Origin: a virus | Direction: 5' to 3' (one strand) | Length of the DNA stretch: 59,060 nt | IMG/VR virus record: IMGVR_UViG_3300030060_000739 | Coordinates: 1 to 59,060 of that record | Shown: positions 16,062-26,206 of the stretch, piece after piece | Numbering within the stretch: the stretch's first letter is position 1 | How the letters are laid out: the number at the start of each line of letters is the position of its first letter | Notes under the pieces: model-generated | Database searches by the model: none | Told to the model about the DNA's origin: nothing | Seen by the model: only the letters and a program-made list of their open reading frames with translations | Position numbers and translations under genes: made by a program

Positions 16062-17570
16062 TTGGAGATAGCCGAAAAACTACATGATATTTTTCATGGC
16101 TCGGATCGAGCTCATGGAAGTTTCACGGTAGAAAATGGTTCTCTAGGAAAAAAGACACAAGGTAAAGCTAAAACAATCAAAACTGCCGGAGCCAGTATTC
16201 AACACTGGGAGGACCATCTGACAGGTAAAGAGGGTCTGGGTGTTATTCCTATCGACGAAGATAATCTAGTAAAGTGGGGTGCCATTGATATTGATGTGTA
16301 CTCTCTAGATTTAGTAAAGCTGGTTCAAAAGATAGAAGAATTTAAACTGCCTCTCGTAGTGTGTAGAAGTAAGAGTGGCGGTGCTCATGTGTTTTGTTTC
16401 TTGAAGGAGACTGTTTCTGCAGGAGACATGCAAGATAAACTTAGAGAAATTTCTGCCGGTCTAGGATATGGGGGAGTAGAGATATTTCCTAAGCAGAGAG
16501 AGGTATTGGTGGAGAGGGGGGATATTGGCTCGTGGCTCAATATGCCTTACTTTGAGGGAGATGATTCAATGCGTTACGGTTTTGATACCAAAGGTAACGC
16601 ATTAAAACTAGAAGAGTTTGTTCCGTTTGTAGAGAGTCGTTCTATAAGTCACACAGACTTAATAGAACTGGAGGTTCCTGTCATAGATGATATGGTGGAG
16701 GGACCACCGTGTCTACAAGTTTTACTACAACAAGGGTTCCCTGAAGGTACAAGAAATAATGGTCTGTTTAATGTGGGGGTGTACCTTAAAAAGTCAGACC
16801 CTGAGAACTGGGATGCAGAAATAGAGGAGTATAATCGTAAGTATGTTCACCCTCCTCTACCGGCTCAGGAAGTCATAACTCTTATAAGTACACTTAAAAA
16901 GAAAGAATATAATTATAAGTGTAGCGATGAACCTATCAGATCTTATTGTAATGTGGCTAAGTGTCGTGGTTGTAAATTTGGTATTGGGGGGAGTAACTCT
17001 GCTCCTACATTTTCTAGCTTATCTAAATTAGACACAAAACCACCACTCTGGTTCTTATCTATTAACGATAAACGTCTTGAGTTAACTACAGAACAGCTCC
17101 AGAATCAGCTTAAATTTCAGCGTGCATCAATGGAGGTACTGAATATTATGCCCCCTCGCATGAACGATAGGTCGTGGCAGACTTTGATACAAAGTTTGAT
17201 GGATAACGGCATGGAAATAATAGAGGTCAGTGAAGACGTCACTATTGAGGGCCAGTTCATGGAGTTACTTGAGTCTTTCTGTACTGACATGGCTCAAGCA
17301 AATACTAGAGAGGAAATTTTACTGGGTAAACCTTACACTGAAGAAGGTAAAACTTATTTTAGGATCAAAGACCTAAAAGAATATTTAGTCAAACACAGGT
17401 TCACCGACATGGAGACTAACCGTGTAGCTTCTAAACTCCGTGACTTAAACGCAAAGCATAAGTTCTGGAACATTAAGGGTCGCGGTACAAACGTCTGGTA
17501 TATCGATGAGTTTGAGTACGATGATAGTAGAGGATTAGATACCCAAGACTTTGAGGATAAGGGCATATAA
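16062..17570 (+). CDS. Archaeo-eukaryotic-type primase (TOTE-like AEP domain)
   Basis: A 502-residue primase that would make primers for the phage polymerase. The AEP active site is visible: motif I IDIDVY with Asp76/Asp78, motif II SKSGGAHVF with His109, and motif III VEIFPK with Glu140. A later Cys cluster (about residues 287-305, C...C...C..C in SYCNVAKCRGCKFG) could bind zinc or iron-sulphur. TTG at 16062 is the start used here: GGAG lies seven bases upstream and no in-frame ATG or GTG occurs before the catalytic domain. The stop overlaps the helicase start (TAATG). Confidence 0.85.
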   Translation: MEIAEKLHDIFHGSDRAHGSFTVENGSLGKKTQGKAKTIKTAGASIQHWEDHLTGKEGLGVIPIDEDNLVKWGAIDIDVYSLDLVKLVQKIEEFKLPLVVCRSKSGGAHVFCFLKETVSAGDMQDKLREISAGLGYGGVEIFPKQREVLVERGDIGSWLNMPYFEGDDSMRYGFDTKGNALKLEEFVPFVESRSISHTDLIELEVPVIDDMVEGPPCLQVLLQQGFPEGTRNNGLFNVGVYLKKSDPENWDAEIEEYNRKYVHPPLPAQEVITLISTLKKKEYNYKCSDEPIRSYCNVAKCRGCKFGIGGSNSAPTFSSLSKLDTKPPLWFLSINDKRLELTTEQLQNQLKFQRASMEVLNIMPPRMNDRSWQTLIQSLMDNGMEIIEVSEDVTIEGQFMELLESFCTDMAQANTREEILLGKPYTEEGKTYFRIKDLKEYLVKHRFTDMETNRVASKLRDLNAKHKFWNIKGRGTNVWYIDEFEYDDSRGLDTQDFEDKGI

Positions 17571-19066
17571 TGTGGAACTTGGTTCTTGGTCCACCTGGGA
17601 CAGGTAAGACTACATATCTGCTCAATAAAGTAGAACAGTTTTTTAATGCAGGCACACGCCCTGAGAAGCTGGGTTATGTTGCGTTTACTAAGAAAGCTGC
17701 TAATGAGGCACTGTCCCGTGCTGTAGAAAAGTTTGGTTATGAGACTGAGGAACTAGCTTATTTTAGAACTCTTCACTCCTTGTGTTATCATTGGTTATCT
17801 TTAAGTAGGACTGATGTAGTTGACAGGGCTAATCTCAGAGACTTTAGTAAAAGTATTGGTGAAAGGATTAGTTCGGCTTGGGATGGCGAGAACCTTATGT
17901 CTCTCAGTAGTAAAGGCGATACCATGTTGTTTTTAGAAAATATGGCTCGTAATCGGTGCGTAAGTTTTAGGGAGCAGTGGAACGCTAACGCCTCTCCGGA
18001 CATGTCTTGGTTACACTTTGATTGGTTTGTAAAAAACTATAGGAAATACAAAGACTTAAACTTTCTTATAGACTACACCGATATGCTTGAGATGTTTTTA
18101 GCTTCTTCTGGTTCGCCCTCTTTAGATGTTCTGATAGTTGATGAGGCACAGGATTTATCTGCCTTACAGTGGCTGTGTGTAGAGAAGCTGGCTAAAAACG
18201 TAGAGCATGTTTATATAGCTGGTGATGATGACCAAGCTATTTATCGCTGGGCTGGTGCAGACGTAGAGCACTTTATTGATCTCAAGGGTATAAACACATA
18301 TCTTCAACAATCGTATAGAGTGCCTAGGAAAGTTCACGACGTAGCTCTTAGCGTGGTCAAACGTATAGGTAGCCGTAAGGAAAAAGTCTGGGAGCCTAGA
18401 GAAGAGGAGGGTTCAGTAAACTACCACACCAGCTTTGAGCATGTGGATATAGATAGTGGTAACTGGTTATTTTTAGCTAGGAATAATTATCTATTGAACG
18501 CTGTAGAAGAACACCTTAAACTAAAAGGTAGAATATACCAGAGGGGTAATAGATCCTCAGTGTCAGAGAACTTGATAACAGCTATCAGGGACTGGGAAGC
18601 TCTGCGTAAAGGAGAGACATTAGAGGCTGGTAGAATCCGTAAGATATACGGTTATATGAAGGTGGGCAGAGGAGTACAGAGAGGTTTTAAAACTCTCAAA
18701 GCTGTGAGAGACGACTCGTTTTTGAGTATAGGACAGCTAAAAAGAGATTATGGTTTATTGATGGATACACCATGGCATGACTGTTTTGACTTGATAGGTA
18801 ATACTCAGAGGGAGTACGTTATCTCTTGTCTACGACAGGGAGAAAAACTCATGTCTTCTAAAATAAGGCTCAACTCTATACATGCTTCAAAGGGCGGTGA
18901 GTCTGATAACGTGGTATTATTAACAGACATGGCAACTAAAACCTGGGATGATCTGTATAAAAACCCTGATAATGAGTGTCGTGCTTTTTATGTAGGGGTT
19001 ACTAGGACAAAGCAAAATCTACACATCGTCCGTGGTAAAACACGTAAGGAGTTTTTATTCGTATGA
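17570..19066 (+). CDS. UvrD/Rep-like superfamily 1 DNA helicase
   Basis: A 498-residue helicase. Walker A is GPPGTGKT (residues 7-14), motif II is VDEAQDL (about 189-195), motif III region is GDDDQAIYRWAGA, motif IV QQSYRVP, motif V SIHASKGGESDNVV, and motif VI YVGVTRTKQNL near the C-terminus. It follows the primase with a TAATG overlap. No DnaB-type helicase was found in the window, so this enzyme or the SNF2 protein would be the phage's own unwinding activity. Expected polarity is 3'-5' by family. Confidence 0.92.
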   Translation: MWNLVLGPPGTGKTTYLLNKVEQFFNAGTRPEKLGYVAFTKKAANEALSRAVEKFGYETEELAYFRTLHSLCYHWLSLSRTDVVDRANLRDFSKSIGERISSAWDGENLMSLSSKGDTMLFLENMARNRCVSFREQWNANASPDMSWLHFDWFVKNYRKYKDLNFLIDYTDMLEMFLASSGSPSLDVLIVDEAQDLSALQWLCVEKLAKNVEHVYIAGDDDQAIYRWAGADVEHFIDLKGINTYLQQSYRVPRKVHDVALSVVKRIGSRKEKVWEPREEEGSVNYHTSFEHVDIDSGNWLFLARNNYLLNAVEEHLKLKGRIYQRGNRSSVSENLITAIRDWEALRKGETLEAGRIRKIYGYMKVGRGVQRGFKTLKAVRDDSFLSIGQLKRDYGLLMDTPWHDCFDLIGNTQREYVISCLRQGEKLMSSKIRLNSIHASKGGESDNVVLLTDMATKTWDDLYKNPDNECRAFYVGVTRTKQNLHIVRGKTRKEFLFV

Positions 19067-19647
19067 TGGTGTATAAAAAACATTTTTTCAAAGATTACGA
19101 CCCACAGATACGTGATTGGGATCCACCGACTATTAGAAGGTTTGATGGTAAAGATGTTGTAGGCAGATACACAAAAGGTTTTGGCTCTTCTGTTTTTATG
19201 TATGCTGGTAAAAAATATCAACCGCAAGACTGGACCACGCCTATGTCTGTAATTAAATCAGCAGCAGAAGCTCTAGTTTATGGCTGTACAGATAAGAAGG
19301 TAAACTTTACGTTTTGTCTCTGTGGTCTTTACCAGAATGGTTCTGTGTCCATACCTCATCACTCAGATACTGTGCCGACATTAGATGATATTGTTGTTTC
19401 TATTTCTTTCGGCTCTACTAGATTATTTGAGTGGTATGAGTACGATCAAGATATAAAAAGTAGATCAGATACAAGTAAGACATGCGTTCAAGAACTAGAG
19501 CCAGTGCAGATACGAAGATTTTTATTAGAAGATGGTGACGCATTTATCTTTGACGGTCATTCACAGATGCGTTCAACACACGCTGTCCCTCCTCTAGAAC
19601 AGTCGTCTGGTGAGCGAGTAAATCTTACTTTTAGAACGGGACTATAG
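19063..19647 (+). CDS. AlkB-like 2-oxoglutarate/Fe(II) dioxygenase
   Basis: A 194-residue protein. The iron ligands His100-x-Asp102 (in IPHHSDTV) and His173 (in STHAVPP) are present, with the AlkB-type C-terminal RVNLTFR (Arg185, Asn187, Arg191) that binds 2-oxoglutarate and shapes the active site. Members remove alkyl groups from bases or oxidise them. The gene overlaps the helicase stop and leads into the predicted base-modification genes, so it may either repair DNA or oxidise a modified base. ATG at 19063 or 19066 could be the start. Confidence 0.85.
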   Translation: MMVYKKHFFKDYDPQIRDWDPPTIRRFDGKDVVGRYTKGFGSSVFMYAGKKYQPQDWTTPMSVIKSAAEALVYGCTDKKVNFTFCLCGLYQNGSVSIPHHSDTVPTLDDIVVSISFGSTRLFEWYEYDQDIKSRSDTSKTCVQELEPVQIRRFLLEDGDAFIFDGHSQMRSTHAVPPLEQSSGERVNLTFRTGL

Positions 19648-19662
19648 GATCATTCGTATACT

Positions 19663-19684
19663 TTTACTTTACAAGTAAAGTAAA
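19663..19684. promoter_or_regulatory. 10-bp inverted repeat in the gap before 19695
   Basis: TTTACTTTAC at 19663-19672 is followed, after AA, by its exact reverse complement GTAAAGTAAA at 19675-19684. It lies in a 47-bp gap, 10 bases before the next start. A two-base loop makes a hairpin awkward, so a dimer-binding operator is the simpler reading. The left arm contains the same TTTACTT word seen in the three promoters at 28049, 32420 and 34104. Confidence 0.65.
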
Positions 19685-19694
19685 CTAAATACAT

Positions 19695-20171
19695 ATGAAT
19701 ATATTTAAACTGTCAGATACGCCTCAAAACTGTGCTAAAATGCACTGCGATAAGCACGTTAGTAAGATGATACTAGAGTCTGCGCAGATGCTTTGTACTA
19801 CGTTGTGGTATAACGATCAGTCCGCTCCATATCTACCAGTACACCCCAAACACCCATGCACTCTATGGTCTGGGGAAAGCCTTGATAACTGGATATGGTT
19901 AAAAGAGTTAGCTCTGTACCTTAATGAAGAGTTTTGCTGGCGTTACGGTAGGTCTGTAAACCATAAGTCAGCTGACGTTATAAAAGGGCTACGCCCCCCA
20001 ATCATAGAAAGTAAAGGGCTACAACAACATCCTCAATGTATGCCTGATCAGTATAAGGTTCCTAACGACCCTATATCTGCCTATCGCGCTTATTACATAG
20101 GGGAAAAAACATTCGCTAAATGGACTAAACGGGAGGTGCCTGAGTGGTACGGTCAGAGCTTGGTGGCATAA
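19695..20171 (+). CDS. Conserved-type phage protein (MNIF...DKHVSKMI family), possible DNA repair role
   Basis: A 158-residue protein whose opening MNIFKLSDTPQNCAKMHCDK, followed by HVSKMILESAQ, and later HPCTLWSG, NWIWL, CMPDQYK and YRAYYIGEK define a family frequent in marine and T4-like phages. I have seen relatives loosely labelled as pyrimidine-dimer DNA glycosylases, but I see no T4 endonuclease V N-terminus here, so I leave the function open. The next gene starts inside its last 28 bases. Confidence 0.7.
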   Translation: MNIFKLSDTPQNCAKMHCDKHVSKMILESAQMLCTTLWYNDQSAPYLPVHPKHPCTLWSGESLDNWIWLKELALYLNEEFCWRYGRSVNHKSADVIKGLRPPIIESKGLQQHPQCMPDQYKVPNDPISAYRAYYIGEKTFAKWTKREVPEWYGQSLVA

Positions 20172-21046
20172 GAGCCTTTTTTGATTACATAAACGAGCGG
20201 TACAGGATATATCTTAGAAAAACGCAAGGAGATCCGTGGCCTTGGACTGATGATGAGATACTGCAGACATACAGTTTCTGCAACGTATACCGCGAGGACG
20301 ATACGGTAACGGAATGGATTAGAAAAAACTGGAGAGAGCCGTACCATAATCACCCTAACTTAGCTTTTGCTATGGCGGTGGCTCGTCAAATAAACTGGCC
20401 ACCTACGTTAGAAGCCATAGGTTTCCCTGAGGAGTGGGATCCTGAGCGAGTCAAAGCTATTATGCAAGATAGAAAAGATAAAAATCAAAAAGTATACACA
20501 GGTGCTTACATGCTGACTGGCACGCTAGGCGGTACTAAGATTGAGCAGACGGTTGATAAAATACTCACACCCCTCTACAATAACCATCCTGAGATAGTAC
20601 AGGAGTCACTCAGAGAGACGTGGCAAAACTACTTGCCTTATTCTGGTTTTAGTGGTTTTATGGCTTATGAAGTAGTAACTGACTTAAGACATACATCATA
20701 CCTCCAGCAAGCTAAAGATATACATAGCTGGGCTAACGCTGGTCCCGGTGCTAAACGTGGACTAAATAGAATACATAACAGACCACTGGAGGAGAACGTA
20801 AAGTCTTCTCAACTAACAGCCGAGATGAAAGAGCTACAGGATATGTCATACCGTATTGTTAGAACCAGCATGGACTCAGGCAGTCAGGATTACTTAGAGT
20901 ACATATCTTACTTGATTGAAGACGCTGGCGGTTTAGAGATGAGAGACATAGAGCATAACCTCTGTGAGTTTGATAAGTATGAAAGAGTCCGTCTCGGTGA
21001 AGGCAGGCCGAGGTCTAAATATAACCCTAACAAAGGAGTAGTTTGA
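20144..21046 (+). CDS. HMUDK-helical/aGPT-Pplase-type protein, predicted thymine hypermodification enzyme
   Basis: A 300-residue protein starting at GTG 20144, seven bases after GGGAGG. Its N-terminal half has ERYRIYLRK, PWTDDEIL (33-40) and FCNVYREDD (45-53), the pattern of the helical domain found with 5-hydroxymethyl-dU DNA kinases and the alpha-glutamyl/putrescinyl-thymine pyrophosphorylases. Later GFSGFMAYEVVTDL, NAGPGAKRGLNR and LCEFDKYERV fit the DNA-glycosylase-like core of that superfamily. Known members act on hydroxymethyl-uracil in phage DNA. It has no P-loop kinase domain. The exact reaction cannot be read from sequence. Confidence 0.7.
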   Translation: MVRSELGGIRAFFDYINERYRIYLRKTQGDPWPWTDDEILQTYSFCNVYREDDTVTEWIRKNWREPYHNHPNLAFAMAVARQINWPPTLEAIGFPEEWDPERVKAIMQDRKDKNQKVYTGAYMLTGTLGGTKIEQTVDKILTPLYNNHPEIVQESLRETWQNYLPYSGFSGFMAYEVVTDLRHTSYLQQAKDIHSWANAGPGAKRGLNRIHNRPLEENVKSSQLTAEMKELQDMSYRIVRTSMDSGSQDYLEYISYLIEDAGGLEMRDIEHNLCEFDKYERVRLGEGRPRSKYNPNKGVV

Positions 21047-21357
21047 TGCCCTCAGATTTTTTACACATACAGTCCCTAGCTGATAAAGATGTAGACACCC
21101 TCAAAAAAGCTCAAGAGAGTTACGGCGACAGCTGGAGAGATAGAGGTGGTATCGGTGCCTTTATGATGCTAGCTCGTAAATGGGATAGGATAGAGAATCA
21201 GGTAACTAAAAGTGGGTACGATATTTTTAGAACCATATCTAACGACCCTAGTGATACTGGGATATTAGACGACATACGAGACCTGCGAGCATATTTATTG
21301 TTAGTAGAGTCTTTCACTACGCTCGATAGAAAAGGAGAGTTTATAAGTAATGATTAA
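21046..21357 (+). CDS. Nmad1-like (DUF1599) all-alpha protein, MazG-type fold predicted
   Basis: A 103-residue protein. ATG at 21046 is chosen: GGAG at 21035-21038 is seven bases upstream and the codon overlaps the previous stop (TGATG). The pattern YGDSWRDRGGIGAFMMLARKWDRIENQ followed by DDIRDLRAYLLLVE (quoted here as separate motifs YGDSW, RKWDRIE and DIRDLRAYLLL) resembles the Nmad1 family, linked to modified-nucleotide systems and related to all-alpha NTP pyrophosphatases. Its place between the HMUDK-type gene and dUTPase suits removal of an unwanted nucleotide. The family match is from memory. Confidence 0.6.
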   Translation: MPSDFLHIQSLADKDVDTLKKAQESYGDSWRDRGGIGAFMMLARKWDRIENQVTKSGYDIFRTISNDPSDTGILDDIRDLRAYLLLVESFTTLDRKGEFISND

Positions 21358-21826
21358 ATCTTTTGCTAAAGTAGAGGTGAAGCTGCTTGATAGCACTTTA
21401 CCTGATCGCATGGACCCAGAGCAGGAAATACTGCCGAACTACGCCACCCTAGGAGCAGCTGGTCTAGACTTACGTTCTAGTGAAGGCTTGATACTAAAAC
21501 CTGGACAGTCTCATAAGTTTCATACAGGTATCGCTATTTATATAGGGGATATGAATATCTGTGGCCTGTTAGTGCCTCGTTCAAGTCTAGGTATTAAGAA
21601 AATACACTTAACTAATACGCTGGGGATCATTGACTCAGACTATCAAGGTGAGTTACTTATCCCTCTCACTAATAACGGCGATGAGCCTTATCATGTAGAG
21701 TTTGGTCAACGCATAGCCCAGATGGTTATGTTACCTGTAATACAGGTACAGTGGGAAGCTGTGTTAGATTTTAGCGCACCGACTCAGCGGTGTGAGGGTG
21801 GTTTTGGTAGTACAGGAAAAACATAA
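21350..21826 (+). CDS. dut: dUTPase (deoxyuridine triphosphatase)
   Basis: A 158-residue trimeric-type dUTPase that turns dUTP into dUMP and pyrophosphate. All five motifs can be seen: AAGLDLRS (1), PRSSLGIK (2), LGIIDSDYQGEL (3), GQRIAQMV (4) and the C-terminal GGFGSTGKT (5). The product dUMP is the substrate of the thymidylate-synthase-like enzyme encoded two genes downstream. It thus both keeps uracil out of DNA and feeds the pathway. It overlaps the previous gene by eight bases and the next by TAATG. Confidence 0.95.
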   Translation: MIKSFAKVEVKLLDSTLPDRMDPEQEILPNYATLGAAGLDLRSSEGLILKPGQSHKFHTGIAIYIGDMNICGLLVPRSSLGIKKIHLTNTLGIIDSDYQGELLIPLTNNGDEPYHVEFGQRIAQMVMLPVIQVQWEAVLDFSAPTQRCEGGFGSTGKT

Positions 21827-22617
21827 TGAAGATATACATACCCACAAGAGGTAGGCCAGATAATCAAGTAACCATAGACTTTTTCTCAGAGGACTTCATC
21901 AACCACGGCACAGTCATACTAGCTATAGATGAAGATGAGGAGCATCTGTACGGTAAGTACGAGCATGTTAAAAAGCTTGTAGTTCCTTCTTCAGTCAAGG
22001 GTATTAGTGCTAAACGTAAGTACATAGTTGATAATACTCAAGACCCTAGGATAGTCATGCTTGATGATGACTTACGGTTCTATGTCCGTAAAAGCCCTAC
22101 AGATTGGCATCTACGGTATCTCAGGCCAGATGAGTATCTAGCTCTGTTTGGTTTGATTGATGAGTTTTTTAGTCAAGGTTTTGCTCACGTGGGCATTAGT
22201 GCTAGAGAGGGTAATAACCGTGTAGAAGGTTTGACTGCCCTTAACACTCGGTATATGAGAGTCCTCGGGTACAACCTTGATAAGTTCCCTGACGATATAG
22301 AGTGGGGCAGAACAGAAGTCATGGAGGACTTTGACATAGCTCTTCAATTACTGCGGAAAGGTAAGCCTTGTAAAATCAGTTACTTTTACGCTCAAGGTCA
22401 AAAATCATCTAACGCTCCCGGAGGCTGTAGTGAGTGGAGGACTATTGATGTACATAACGCTGGGGCAGACAGGTTACATGAGCTGCACCCTGAGTTTGTA
22501 AAAGTTATGGAGAAGCAAACTAAAACGGCGTGGAACGGTTTACCTAGACGGGACGTTCAGGTTAGCTGGAAAAAAGCATACAAAGCAGGAGTAGAAGCCT
22601 TTCATGAGAATAATTAA
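21826..22617 (+). CDS. GT-A-fold glycosyltransferase, predicted DNA or nucleotide sugar transfer
   Basis: A 263-residue protein. It opens with IYIPTRGRP, has the metal-binding acidic motif MLDDDLRF (Asp80-82), and a later EVMEDFDIALQLL that resembles the ED catalytic segment of GT2-like enzymes. It lies between dUTPase and the thymidylate-synthase-like gene, and overlaps both. That position suggests it adds a sugar to a hydroxymethylated base rather than to a cell-surface molecule, but the acceptor is not shown by sequence. Confidence 0.75.
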   Translation: MKIYIPTRGRPDNQVTIDFFSEDFINHGTVILAIDEDEEHLYGKYEHVKKLVVPSSVKGISAKRKYIVDNTQDPRIVMLDDDLRFYVRKSPTDWHLRYLRPDEYLALFGLIDEFFSQGFAHVGISAREGNNRVEGLTALNTRYMRVLGYNLDKFPDDIEWGRTEVMEDFDIALQLLRKGKPCKISYFYAQGQKSSNAPGGCSEWRTIDVHNAGADRLHELHPEFVKVMEKQTKTAWNGLPRRDVQVSWKKAYKAGVEAFHENN

Positions 22618-23626
22618 AACAAGAAACGTACAAGACGCGCTGCCTAAAGGTCTAGACTTATTATACGGTGAGCACTATAAACAAGACAGCCGTAACGGCA
22701 CAGTGTATAAAGCTAAGTCCCCTGTTTGTACCGTTTACGATAACCCAGAAGAGAGAGTTATGTTCTGGACTGAGCGGGACGCTAACCCTTTCTTTCATTT
22801 TATGGAGGGGTTGTGGATGTTAGCTGGTCGTAACGACCTAGAGTTTGTTAAGCAGTATAACAAAGGCATGGCTCGATACAGTGATGACGGAAAGACGCTA
22901 CACGGAGCTTACGGCTGGCGATGGCGTGACTGGTTCTTTGAAAGGAAAGACCCAGACCAGCTCAAAGTAATTATAAAAAGATTAGCAGAAGATCCTACTG
23001 ATAGGCGTTGCGTTTTACAGATGTGGGACGCAGTAGAAGATTTAGATAGGGTGGGAGTAGATGTGCCGTGTAACACTGCCATCTATTTTAACGTCAGTGC
23101 TGGTAAACTTAACATGACTGTAACTAACCGCTCTAATGACATAATCTGGGGAGCGTATGGTGCTAACGCTGTACATATGTCTATGCTTCATGAATATATT
23201 GCCGCGCATGCGGGTTATCGTGTCGGTAAGTATTATCAGTTCAGTAACGATTACCATGCGTATGAGGAGATTTATAGCAAATTAATCAAAGGTTTAGATG
23301 GTTTTGAGCCCACAAATGTTTTGGCAATATTAGACCTCATGGAGGTAAATCCGTATAAACTAGGAGAAGTAAGCCCATACCCCATGGTCAGTGTTTCTAG
23401 GGAGGTGTGGGACAAAGACTTACACAGGTTTTTAGAAAGGAAGCCGTTTGACACGTTTAGCCCATTTGAAGAGAAGTTTTTTAATGATGTGGCTGTACCT
23501 ATGCAGGACACATGGTCTCTTCATAAACTGGGTAAAACAGAAGAGGCTCTGGATAAAATACAAAATTGCCAAGCATCTGACTGGAAAAAAGCCTGTAAGG
23601 AGTGGTTGGAAAGAAGAGTTAAATAA
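22604..23626 (+). CDS. Thymidylate synthase family enzyme (dTMP synthase or dUMP hydroxymethylase)
   Basis: A 340-residue ThyA-superfamily enzyme. The catalytic Cys is Cys156 in DVPCNTAIYF; the phosphate-binding Arg pair is RR at 134-135, and RSND (176-179), Asn188 in AYGANAVH, and His218/Tyr220 in NDYHAY complete the dUMP site. The Asn suggests a uracil rather than cytosine substrate. Family members either methylate dUMP to dTMP or add a hydroxymethyl group. The AYGANAVH loop is one residue longer than in E. coli ThyA. Neighbouring modification genes favour hydroxymethylation, but this is inference. Confidence 0.85.
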   Translation: MRIIKTRNVQDALPKGLDLLYGEHYKQDSRNGTVYKAKSPVCTVYDNPEERVMFWTERDANPFFHFMEGLWMLAGRNDLEFVKQYNKGMARYSDDGKTLHGAYGWRWRDWFFERKDPDQLKVIIKRLAEDPTDRRCVLQMWDAVEDLDRVGVDVPCNTAIYFNVSAGKLNMTVTNRSNDIIWGAYGANAVHMSMLHEYIAAHAGYRVGKYYQFSNDYHAYEEIYSKLIKGLDGFEPTNVLAILDLMEVNPYKLGEVSPYPMVSVSREVWDKDLHRFLERKPFDTFSPFEEKFFNDVAVPMQDTWSLHKLGKTEEALDKIQNCQASDWKKACKEWLERRVK

Positions 23627-23638
23627 GGATGATTACCC

Positions 23639-24319
23639 ATGATACCTCAATGGTCTTACAGTAGGTTGACATGTTTTGAAAAGTGTCCTAAACAAGCAGA
23701 GTTTAAGTTTGTTAAAAGAATCAAAGAGCCTGGAAGTAAGGCTATGGATCGTGGTAAAGAAATACATAAACTGTGTGAAGACTATATCAGAGGTAATTAT
23801 GAAGAAGTGCCTCCTCAACTCAAAGACTTTGAAGATGCCTTTGAGATGCTAAGAGAACTCTATATGTATGGCCATGTTTTGTGTGAGAGTGACTGGGCTA
23901 TAGATCAAAACTGGGAGAAGACAGGCTGGTTTGAAGACGATACATGGGGCAGGGCTAAAGTAGATGCCTTTGTATATGAAGAAGGCATATCTAAAGAGGC
24001 TAGGGTCATAGATTTTAAAACAGGAAGGTATGACGGTAATCAAGAATCACATAGAGAGCAGTGTGAGCTGTATGGTGCTGTTTCTTTGAGTAGGTATCCG
24101 GAGCTAGAAAAGATTACTACAGAGATGTGGTACTTAGACCATGGTAAGATAGACAGGTATATCTACACGCCGGAAAGCATAAAAGTAAAACGCGAGCGTC
24201 TCAATAACAGAGCACTAGCTATGACTACGGCTACTGAGTTCCCAGCGACACCTTCTATGTTTAAGTGTAAGTGGTGTTACTTTGGTAAACAGAATATGTG
24301 TAGAGAGGTTATGCGATAG
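23639..24319 (+). CDS. PD-(D/E)XK exonuclease of the RecB/Cas4 type
   Basis: A 226-residue nuclease. The active site is His43 (in EIHKLC), Asp109 (in AKVDAF) and Asp125-x-Lys127 (in VIDFKTGR), followed by a QCELYG motif. Two cysteines near the N-terminus (TCFEKCP) and a C-terminal CKWCYFGKQNMC could together hold an iron-sulphur cluster, as in Cas4 and AddB. It is followed directly by DNA polymerase, so a role in recombination, end trimming or host DNA breakdown is likely. Confidence 0.88.
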   Translation: MIPQWSYSRLTCFEKCPKQAEFKFVKRIKEPGSKAMDRGKEIHKLCEDYIRGNYEEVPPQLKDFEDAFEMLRELYMYGHVLCESDWAIDQNWEKTGWFEDDTWGRAKVDAFVYEEGISKEARVIDFKTGRYDGNQESHREQCELYGAVSLSRYPELEKITTEMWYLDHGKIDRYIYTPESIKVKRERLNNRALAMTTATEFPATPSMFKCKWCYFGKQNMCREVMR

Positions 24320-26206
24320 ATGTCACAGATGATTCTTTTTCCACCTAGCGCGGAGTGGTCAATACCTAATTCTTTTCCTGACTTGAGAAACCAGAAAGAG
24401 GTTGCCATTGACCTAGAGACCTGTGATCCGTGGCTCCTGTCTCATGGTCCAGGCTGGGCGTTTAAAGATAGAGGATATATTATTGGTATCGCGGTGGCGA
24501 CTGATGGATGGTCTGGTTACTTCCCTATCGCACATAAGTCTGGGGCTAACTTAGATCAAGCGGTAGTAAGACGATGGCTACAGAAACAGCTTGATGCACC
24601 TAACGATAAAATATTCCATAACGCACAGTATGATGTAGGTTGGTTGAAAGCATCTGGCTATACAATCAATGGCAAGATACATGATACCATGGTGGCTGCT
24701 CCTCTCTTAGATGAGAATAAAAGAAGTTACTCTCTTAATAATCTAGGTAAGTATTACTTAGGCGTCATCAAAGATGAGACTATGTTGACTGAAGCAGCCC
24801 ACGCCTTTGGGGTTGATCCTAAGTCTGAGATGTATAAACTTGCCCCTGAGTATGTAGGTAAGTACGCTGAGCAAGATGCTGCTATGACATACGAGTTGTG
24901 GCAGTTACTAAAAGATGGCATCCAGACAGATGATGTCTCAGAGATATATGAGCTAGAGAGTTCTCTCATACCCAACCTAATAGACATGCGTAGGAAGGGT
25001 GTACGCATAGATACAGATAAAGCTCAAGAAGTTAAAAAGTATCTAGCTAAAAAAGAATCAAAGATAGTTCAAGAAGTTAAACGCTGGTATGGGGTCGAGC
25101 CTGACTTATGGGCAGCTCAGTCTCTTTCTCAAGTGTTTGACAGGGCTGGTATAGATTACCCTAAAACACCTAAGACTAACGCACCCAGCTTTACAGCAAA
25201 CTGGCTAGAAGAGCACGACCACAAGTTACCTAAAGCTATAGCACAAGCAAGAAAGCTCAATAAAGCTAGGACTACATTCATAGATAAAATGATACTAGAA
25301 CATTTAGTAGATGGCAGGATACATGGGGAGTTACACCCACTGCGTTCTGATGTAGGAGGCACAGTCACTGGTAGATTTAGCTGCTCTAACCCTAACTTAC
25401 AACAGGTTCCGGCTAGAGATCCAGAGATAGGTAACTTGATTAGAAGTTTATTTTTACCTGAGGAAGGTTGTCACTGGGGTTGTTTTGACTACTCTCAACA
25501 AGAGCCCAGACTTACTGTGCATTATTCTGTCATTACTCAGCAAGAGGGTGCAGAGGAAGCTGCGTTTGAGTACACTAATGATGATGCTGACTTCCACCAG
25601 ATTGTAGCCGACATGGCTAATATCAGCCGTAAAGAAGCTAAGATTATTAACCTTGGCTTGAGCTACGGTATGGGTAAAGATAAGTTGACTACTCAACTAG
25701 ACATTAGCCCAGAAGAAGCTGAAGTCTTGTTTGATCAGTATCATCAGCGTGTGCCGTTCATCCGTGGCCTACGAGACTCTACCGCAAGGATGGGTTCTAA
25801 CAGAGGCTATATCAAAACTATACTCGGCCGTAAGTGTAGGTTTAATTTATACGAGCCCTTTGACCGTAGGGAGTTACCTCTACCGCTGGACGAGGCGATG
25901 GAGGCGTATGGAGGAAAGCTCAAAAGGGCTTATACCTATAAAGCTATGAATCGTTTGATACAAGGCTCAGCAGCAGATATGACTAAGAAAGCTATGCTCG
26001 ATCTACATAAAGAAGGGCTCATAGCCCATACACAGGTTCACGATGAGCTAAACATATCTATAGCAGATCAAGCTGAGTGCGAGAAAGTAATAGAGATTAT
26101 GCGTGACTGTGTTGAGCTAAAAGTTCCTAACAAGGTAGACGCAGAGATAGGCACAAGCTGGGGGGATGTAAAAGATTACAAGGTGCACTTTAATGAAAGC
26201 TCGTGA
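24320..26206 (+). CDS. DNA polymerase I family (PolA) with 3'-5' exonuclease
   Basis: A 628-residue replicative polymerase. Proofreading residues are Asp31/Glu33 (VAIDLETC), Asp105 (NAQYDVGW) and Tyr182/Asp186 (YAEQDAA). Polymerase motif A is FDYSQQEPR with Asp390, motif B spans Arg437 to Tyr449 with Lys441, and motif C is HDE with Asp575. The residue equal to E. coli Phe762 is Leu445. Motif A has Pro where most enzymes have Leu (SQxELR). There is no 5'-3' exonuclease domain and no DnaJ insert. ATG follows the nuclease stop directly. Confidence 0.95.
   Translation: MSQMILFPPSAEWSIPNSFPDLRNQKEVAIDLETCDPWLLSHGPGWAFKDRGYIIGIAVATDGWSGYFPIAHKSGANLDQAVVRRWLQKQLDAPNDKIFHNAQYDVGWLKASGYTINGKIHDTMVAAPLLDENKRSYSLNNLGKYYLGVIKDETMLTEAAHAFGVDPKSEMYKLAPEYVGKYAEQDAAMTYELWQLLKDGIQTDDVSEIYELESSLIPNLIDMRRKGVRIDTDKAQEVKKYLAKKESKIVQEVKRWYGVEPDLWAAQSLSQVFDRAGIDYPKTPKTNAPSFTANWLEEHDHKLPKAIAQARKLNKARTTFIDKMILEHLVDGRIHGELHPLRSDVGGTVTGRFSCSNPNLQQVPARDPEIGNLIRSLFLPEEGCHWGCFDYSQQEPRLTVHYSVITQQEGAEEAAFEYTNDDADFHQIVADMANISRKEAKIINLGLSYGMGKDKLTTQLDISPEEAEVLFDQYHQRVPFIRGLRDSTARMGSNRGYIKTILGRKCRFNLYEPFDRRELPLPLDEAMEAYGGKLKRAYTYKAMNRLIQGSAADMTKKAMLDLHKEGLIAHTQVHDELNISIADQAECEKVIEIMRDCVELKVPNKVDAEIGTSWGDVKDYKVHFNESS

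Follow-up and report, generated by a model that had tools for sequence, protein, structure and literature searches.

The cassette and its insertion site

The IMG/VR virus record IMGVR_UViG_3300030060_000739 is a DNA of 59,060 bases, which was analysed at its full length and is called the window hereafter. Its source is a marine virus that infects bacteria, and at positions 19,063 to 23,626 it carries a removable cassette of seven adjacent genes on one strand, forming a DNA-base-modification cassette (Table 1). An original prediction, made from the letters of the sequence, had listed six of these genes, that is, an AlkB-like dioxygenase, a protein of the HMUDK/aGPT type, an Nmad1-like protein, a dUTPase, a GT-A glycosyltransferase and a thymidylate synthase (TS)-like enzyme, and had proposed that they make a sugar-linked hydroxymethyluracil by a route not described. 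All six reading frames are open and adjacent, but a seventh gene, encoding a protein of 158 amino acids (aa), had been overlooked. This paper deals primarily with three of the products: the TS-like enzyme, the HMUDK_hel protein (hel) and the glycosyltransferase, which belongs specifically to the TAGT family.

Table 1. Genes and sequence motifs of the cassette and of its flanks, with positions in the window and the supporting matches.
Feature	Position	Strand	Evidence
UvrD-like helicase, left flank of the cassette	17570..19066	+	PF00580 3.8e-30; meets PolA directly in cassette-free DSL-LC04
AlkB-like 2-oxoglutarate (2OG)-Fe(II) dioxygenase, accessory	19063..19647	+	PF13532 1.9e-20
HxD of the AlkB-like protein, residues 100-102	19360-19368	+	motif
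RxxxxxR of the AlkB-like protein, residues 185-191	19615-19635	+	motif
Conserved protein, 158 aa (phrog_624, 'DNA binding protein')	19695..20171	+	phrog_624 4.8e-47; weak Pyr_excise 0.079
HMUDK_hel (PF18723), putative recognition subunit for 5-hydroxymethyluracil (5hmU) in DNA	20144..21046	+	PF18723 1.3e-47
Helix-hairpin-helix-like segment GFSGFMAYEVVTDLR, hel residues 168-182	20645..20689	+	invariant G168, F172, D180, L181
GPGAxRG motif, invariant in hel, residues 200-206	20741..20761	+	hel alignment
All-helical 104-aa protein, putative MazG-like nucleotide pyrophosphatase	21043..21357	+	weak AF1178/DCTPP1/MazG fold matches
dUTPase, optional dUMP supply	21350..21826	+	PF00692 1.8e-28; above NCBIfam dUTP diphosphatase equivalog cut-off
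GT-A glycosyltransferase of the TAGT family, predicted to add a sugar to 5hmU in DNA	21826..22617	+	PF20691 3.6e-22; phrog_842
LDDDL acidic metal motif of TAGT	22060-22074	+	DDD invariant
TS-superfamily enzyme, predicted dUMP hydroxymethylase	22604..23626	+	PF00303 2.8e-26; phrog_5131 4.5e-121
Catalytic Cys156 of the TS-like enzyme	in 23066-23074	+	residue alignment
Asn188 of the TS-like enzyme, base-specificity position	in 23150-23170	+	residue alignment
PD-(D/E)XK nuclease, 3' of the cassette	23639..24319	+	PF12705 1.8e-16
DNA polymerase I (PolA), right flank	24320..26206	+	identity 52.8% to DSL-LC04 PolA, 49.6% to HTVC023P PolA

The portal protein and PolA of the window are nearest to those of the HTVC023P-type podoviruses (023Pt_psg01, the Pelagibacter phages HTVC023P and HTVC027P, and DSL-LC04), which rules out an assignment to Yuavirus, and the hel and TS-like proteins of the cassette are nearest, among named phages, to those of M6/YuA-type and related Stenotrophomonas phages. 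In DSL-LC04 the UvrD gene is directly joined to PolA, that is, the cassette site is empty, and in HTVC027P and 023Pt_psg01 the interval between UvrD and PolA holds just two or three small genes. Because of these empty or small intervals, and because no cassette genes were found near PolA in any of the three phages, the cassette is regarded as an all-or-none insert. Its genes are under strong purifying selection: in a codon comparison with the nearest relative (locus L007; the L numbers denote loci of relatives), the ratio of nonsynonymous to synonymous changes (dN/dS) is 0.045 for hel, 0.012 for TAGT and 0.098 for the TS-like enzyme, and lies below 0.1 in six of the seven genes, the remaining value being 0.18 in the short and little-diverged gene of 158 codons. 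Since hel, TAGT and TS are co-oriented in all 172 loci in which they were compared, with a median gap of 12 bases between hel and TAGT, and since dN/dS is low, the grouping is not due to chance.

The thymidylate-synthase-like enzyme

The TS-like enzyme is 49.7% identical to that of phage M6, and a TS gene is found in 76 of 77 clusters containing TAGT. Cys156 is kept in all of the 154 TS homologues compared, and Asn188 occupies the base-specificity position in 153 of them, including those of the phages M6, ViI and LuckyBarnes; the only exception is the dCMP hydroxymethylase gp42 of T4, which has Asp according to a hand alignment, and Asp also stands at this position in the CMP hydroxymethylase MilA. 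In true thymidylate synthases Trp80 excludes water, and its equivalent is absent from the window enzyme and likewise from that of M6. Given the established enzymology of thymidylate synthases, Asn188 together with the loss of Trp80 forms the ground on which hydroxymethylation of dUMP is predicted, so that this protein would be a dUMP hydroxymethylase and not a thymidylate synthase.

It might be argued that the enzyme is a dCMP hydroxymethylase, that the TAGT makes glycosylated 5-hydroxymethylcytosine (5hmC) as in T-even phages, and that hel is a bystander, for the substrate of the T-even TAGT is glucosylated hydroxymethylcytosine (PMC13216743), and a dCMP hydroxymethylase and two glycosyltransferases were predicted by the authors of the LuckyBarnes genome (PMC6588365). 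Such a cytosine product is nevertheless quite unlikely, because Asn188 is shared by the enzymes of the window and of LuckyBarnes and by every other homologue compared except T4 gp42, the nearest known enzyme comes from M6, a phage whose modified bases derive from 5-hydroxymethyldeoxyuridine, and the hel family is linked to 5hmU. LuckyBarnes (NC_047851, 31993-36008) is the only cultured phage found here that combines hel with two TAGTs and a TS-like enzyme; the latter carries the dUMP-type Asn, although it was published as a dCMP hydroxymethylase.

The glycosyltransferase, hel and the missing kinase

The product of gene 21826, originally called a GT-A glycosyltransferase, matches PF20691 with 79.8 bits (cut-off, 27.5) and is predicted from this family membership and its gene context to transfer a sugar to 5hmU in DNA. 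Because the cassette holds no nucleotide-sugar gene, the sugar donor is presumably that of the host.

The product of gene 20144 matches the full PF18723 domain over residues 10-285 with 163 bits (cut-off, 25), which places it inside the HMUDK/aGPT superfamily, as had been predicted; it is the helical partner of 5hmU DNA kinase and not a P-loop enzyme, and its identity to M6 ORF055 is 39.8%. A search of solved structures by sequence gave no match to hel. Its AlphaFold2 (AF2) model (predicted local distance difference test, pLDDT, 89; predicted template modelling, pTM, 0.87) agrees with the named PF18723 members with template modelling (TM) scores of 0.64-0.85 and also matches a part of the 637-residue '5-hmdU DNA kinase' of phage SP10, which suggests that hel may be fused to the kinase there. 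With lower scores the fold also matches amino-acid:DNA transferases (ADDT), namely the solved structure 8z2n (TM 0.35) and a BFVD ADDT model (TM 0.52). The most conserved stretch of hel is GFSGFMAYEVVTDLR, in which, according to the model, the helices 156-163 and 171-181 flank a hairpin; it aligns weakly to GFGPWIxFK of ADDT. In ViI, gp62 was considered as hel and rejected; the hel of this phage is gp130, located away from the kinase gp61.

The original prediction had also found no P-loop kinase gene, and this held: the PF18748 kinase profile had no match across the whole window record and a wider kinase profile none in any of its open reading frames. Neither the window nor the TAGT clusters contain the ADDT of PF18724, and no Tet_JBP domain (PF12851) was found in the window record, the dioxygenase of which is of the AlkB type. 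Furthermore, a pyridoxal phosphate (PLP) enzyme and the M6-type radical SAM enzyme were never seen in TAGT clusters; these downstream enzymes of M6, including ADDT, occur together with the kinase type. The 5hmU DNA kinases of M6 (gp54, NC_007809, 41685-42248) and ViI (gp61, NC_015296, 38203-38865) are both mislabelled 'terminase small subunit' in RefSeq, a label that apparently stems from phrog_800.

Exchange of the catalytic partner

Relatives were collected from IMG/VR through hel and through TAGT. Among 49 whole records, a kinase is present in nine and TAGT in 28, and the two never occur together, for which the probability by chance is 1.4e-4 if the records are taken as independent, which they are not. 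Clusters around 134 distinct hel proteins contain as their catalyst TAGT (78), a P-loop kinase (34), a GT-B-like enzyme (12) or none that was recognised (10), with six of the labels (five for kinase, one for TAGT) set by hand, and not one of the 134 has both a kinase and a glycosyltransferase. The hand-set kinase labels were given to ViI and L074 from other results of this analysis, to L071 from a weak Zeta-toxin-like match and to Golden and Montesquieu because of where a neighbouring gene lies and how it is annotated; the TAGT label was given to L077. The three GT-B-like families were called by matches to PF00534, PF13524 and PF13439, the third family weakly. In addition, the combination of kinase and glycosyltransferase is also absent from 30 loci of bacterial genomes, one of which has TAGT and GT-B together. 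No hel-TAGT fusion protein occurs in the sampled loci.

On a tree of 65 representative hel proteins the three classes require about 17 changes, a number to be taken as a guide, since the tree was built rapidly and has some long branches; when the well-supported branches alone are counted, at least 7 or 8 changes per class are required. Close hel pairs with different catalysts are L055 (TAGT) and L070 (GT-B), L078 (kinase) and L091 (GT-B), and L080 (GT-B) and L207 (TAGT). Because a constant hel repeatedly swaps unrelated enzymes whose known or predicted target is one and the same hydroxyl group, the most plausible role for hel is recognition of the substrate.

According to an older view, hel is itself an enzyme, a 'pyrophosphorylase' or transferase, and the TAGT would decorate its product. 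This is unlikely, even though hel has a remote fold in common with the amino-acid:DNA transferases and many invariant polar residues, since a constant hel accompanied by mutually exclusive, unrelated catalysts fits an adaptor better, and since the known cassette enzymes of the TAGT type cannot make an activated phosphate intermediate. It is very unlikely that the TAGT modifies glycans of the host or the virion while the phage DNA holds plain 5hmU: glycosyltransferases of marine phages are often tied to lipopolysaccharide changes, as PMC9599517 points out, but TAGT lies a median of 12 bases from hel and always on the strand of hel and TS, it replaces a DNA kinase in repeated swaps, and its family acts on DNA bases in T-even phages.

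A proposed route to glycosylated 5-hydroxymethyluracil

From these data it is proposed, with somewhat better than even confidence, that the cassette makes glycosylated 5hmU in the phage DNA without a kinase step, hel presenting the base to an exchangeable catalyst. The dUTPase of the window, or the 5'-deoxynucleotidase of relatives, would tilt the nucleotide pool towards dUMP, which the TS-like enzyme would convert to 5-hydroxymethyl-dUMP; this would then be phosphorylated and incorporated by PolA, so that 5hmU replaces thymine. Then hel would bind or flip 5hmU in duplex DNA and hand the base to its catalytic partner. In the window this partner would be TAGT, which would add a sugar at the hydroxymethyl group; M6-type phages would use the P-loop kinase in its place and other phages GT-B glycosyltransferases, hel staying constant while the catalyst is exchangeable. 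How each step proceeds chemically, and that hel serves as an adaptor, we infer, like all functions discussed here, from sequence, gene context and predicted structure.

Several points weigh against this proposal. Besides the two published statements on cytosine, the labels set by hand and the nature of the hel tree, the samples are mostly close marine relatives; the clusters with no recognised catalyst make up 10 of 134; chromosomes of Hyphomicrobium have hel, TS and a uracil-DNA glycosylase (UDG) and neither kinase nor glycosyltransferase; and DNA binding by hel is read from gene context and a weak fold link. The sugar-linked hydroxymethyluracil of the original prediction remains the best reading, made without the 5hmU DNA kinase, but the claim of an undescribed route stands only in part, for the co-presence of TS, aGPT-PPlase1 and a glycosyltransferase was noted in pelagiphages in 2022 (PMC9599517). 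In the literature, no chemical analysis of DNA from phages with hel and TAGT was found.

Comparison with known systems

The kinase-type thymidine hypermodification of M6 and ViI consists of a dUMP hydroxymethylase, the PF18748 kinase, PF18723 hel and the PF18724 ADDT. The window is like these phages in its TS-like enzyme, its hel and the position beside PolA, and unlike them in having TAGT instead, with the P-loop kinase, ADDT, PLP enzyme and M6-type radical SAM enzyme all missing; in M6 the PF18723 protein is separate and adjoins the P-loop kinase gp54. The gene combination of the window also occurs in the cluster of HTVC023P-type pelagiphages, in which, according to PMC9599517, TS and aGPT-PPlase1 lie near PolA, sometimes with a 5'-deoxynucleotidase and a beta-glucosyl-HMC-alpha-glucosyltransferase. 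There the set is viewed as a hypermodification of the M6 kind, and it is said that it 'potentially broadens' that system; the missing kinase, the dUMP specificity, the exclusivity of the effectors and an adaptor role are not discussed in the passages of the article that were read.

The T-even TAGT resembles that of the window in the PF20691 domain, the GT-A fold and a match over the full length, but the identity is about 25%, its substrate is glucosylated hmC and it is partnered by a TS-like dCMP enzyme of the Asp type. Base J of kinetoplastids (glucosyl-5hmU) is like the predicted product in that a sugar is carried on 5hmU in DNA. Base J synthesis proceeds by TET/JBP oxidation of thymine within DNA, whereas the window has no Tet_JBP domain and hydroxymethylation is predicted to take place on the nucleotide. 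Bacillus phage SP-15 also has a sugar on a modified thymine, a dUMP hydroxymethylase-type gene and glycosyltransferases, but its base is 5-dihydroxypentyluracil with glucose and phosphoglucuronolactone and its gene cluster is a different one (PMC5977210).

Accessory genes and other hel clusters

The AlkB-like dioxygenase was correctly identified in the original prediction, as its profile match and motifs indicate, but its place in the pathway did not stand: the gene occurs in 38 of 77 TAGT clusters and at varying positions, and a role as a pathway step was rejected as unlikely on account of this patchy occurrence and variable position. Similarly, the dUTPase is what it was said to be but is an optional and not a fixed member, being found in 15 of the 77 TAGT clusters, with a YfbR-type 5'-deoxynucleotidase in 28 others; because the two are never co-present, they look like alternative pool-shaping steps. 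AlkB and the dUTPase are thus dispensable. The Nmad1-like identity of the 104-aa gene (21043) was abandoned, since PF07659 (DUF1599) matched none of the 23 members searched, and M6 gp61 (DUF3310) was rejected as its homologue; the AF2 model (pLDDT, 87) suggests that it is possibly a MazG-like nucleotide pyrophosphatase. The 158-aa protein is kept in most close relatives, and in it and its relatives the motifs DKxxxKMxLE and HPC do not vary; its similarity to pyrimidine-dimer glycosylases is very weak.

Other hel clusters have sugar-related neighbours, fitting sugar chemistry. In L014 (3061-6139) the interval from hel to TS holds two TAGTs with a MobA-like NTP transferase beside them and a protein weakly similar to APH, which may amount to a nucleotide-sugar supply of its own and a two-sugar modification. 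An FkbM-type methyltransferase lies between hel and the glycosyltransferase in L055 (11089-11775) and L070 (11110-11817), which are sister lineages differing in glycosyltransferase type (TAGT and GT-B). A GT61 gene occurs in the L072 cluster and radical-SAM/SPASM enzymes in L072, L090 and L195. The hel/TS cluster of L082 (596-3022) includes PIG-L deacetylase-like and sulfotransferase-like genes, a hint that the sugar on 5hmU may be sulfated or deacetylated there. Moreover, the chromosome of Hyphomicrobium sp. CS1BSMeth3 (L254, 7103-10724), and also L253, L255 and L276, carry a set of UDG-superfamily glycosylase, hel and TS-like genes, which adjoins recA and in which a 273-aa protein matches the profile of the 104-aa gene; this set resembles a predicted defence system of aGPT-Pplase, NMAD and UDG (PMC13092281).

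Significance

More tentatively, and with slightly less than even confidence, PF18723 may be a general adaptor for 5hmU in DNA that has repeatedly swapped its catalyst among the P-loop kinase, the GT-A TAGT and three GT-B families, with kinase or glycosyltransferase but never both, and the TAGT and GT-B branches may make a base-J-like glycosylated 5hmU that is widespread in marine phages and previously undescribed. A study of 2026 counted 753 phage genomes that encode homologues of glycosyltransferases, of which 288 carry a solitary TAGT without T4-type enzymes, and left its function open (PMC13216743); a large group of TAGTs is now tied to a dUMP-type hydroxymethylase, with glycosyl-5hmU as the predicted product, and the ill-named 'kinase helical domain' is given a proposed role as a base-presenting subunit shared by several chemistries. 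Beyond the earlier work, this analysis contributes a proposed route that needs no kinase, the assignment of the TS-like enzyme to dUMP, the rule that kinase and glycosyltransferase exclude each other, the repeated swaps and the hypothesis that hel is an adaptor. The cassette looks like a mix-and-match kit to disguise DNA. If the proposed role of hel is right, hydroxymethyluracil would serve phages as a platform for exchangeable protective groups, and DNA resembling base J would be found beyond trypanosomes, with a bearing on how phages evade restriction, on defences of the glycosylase type and on tools that modify DNA.

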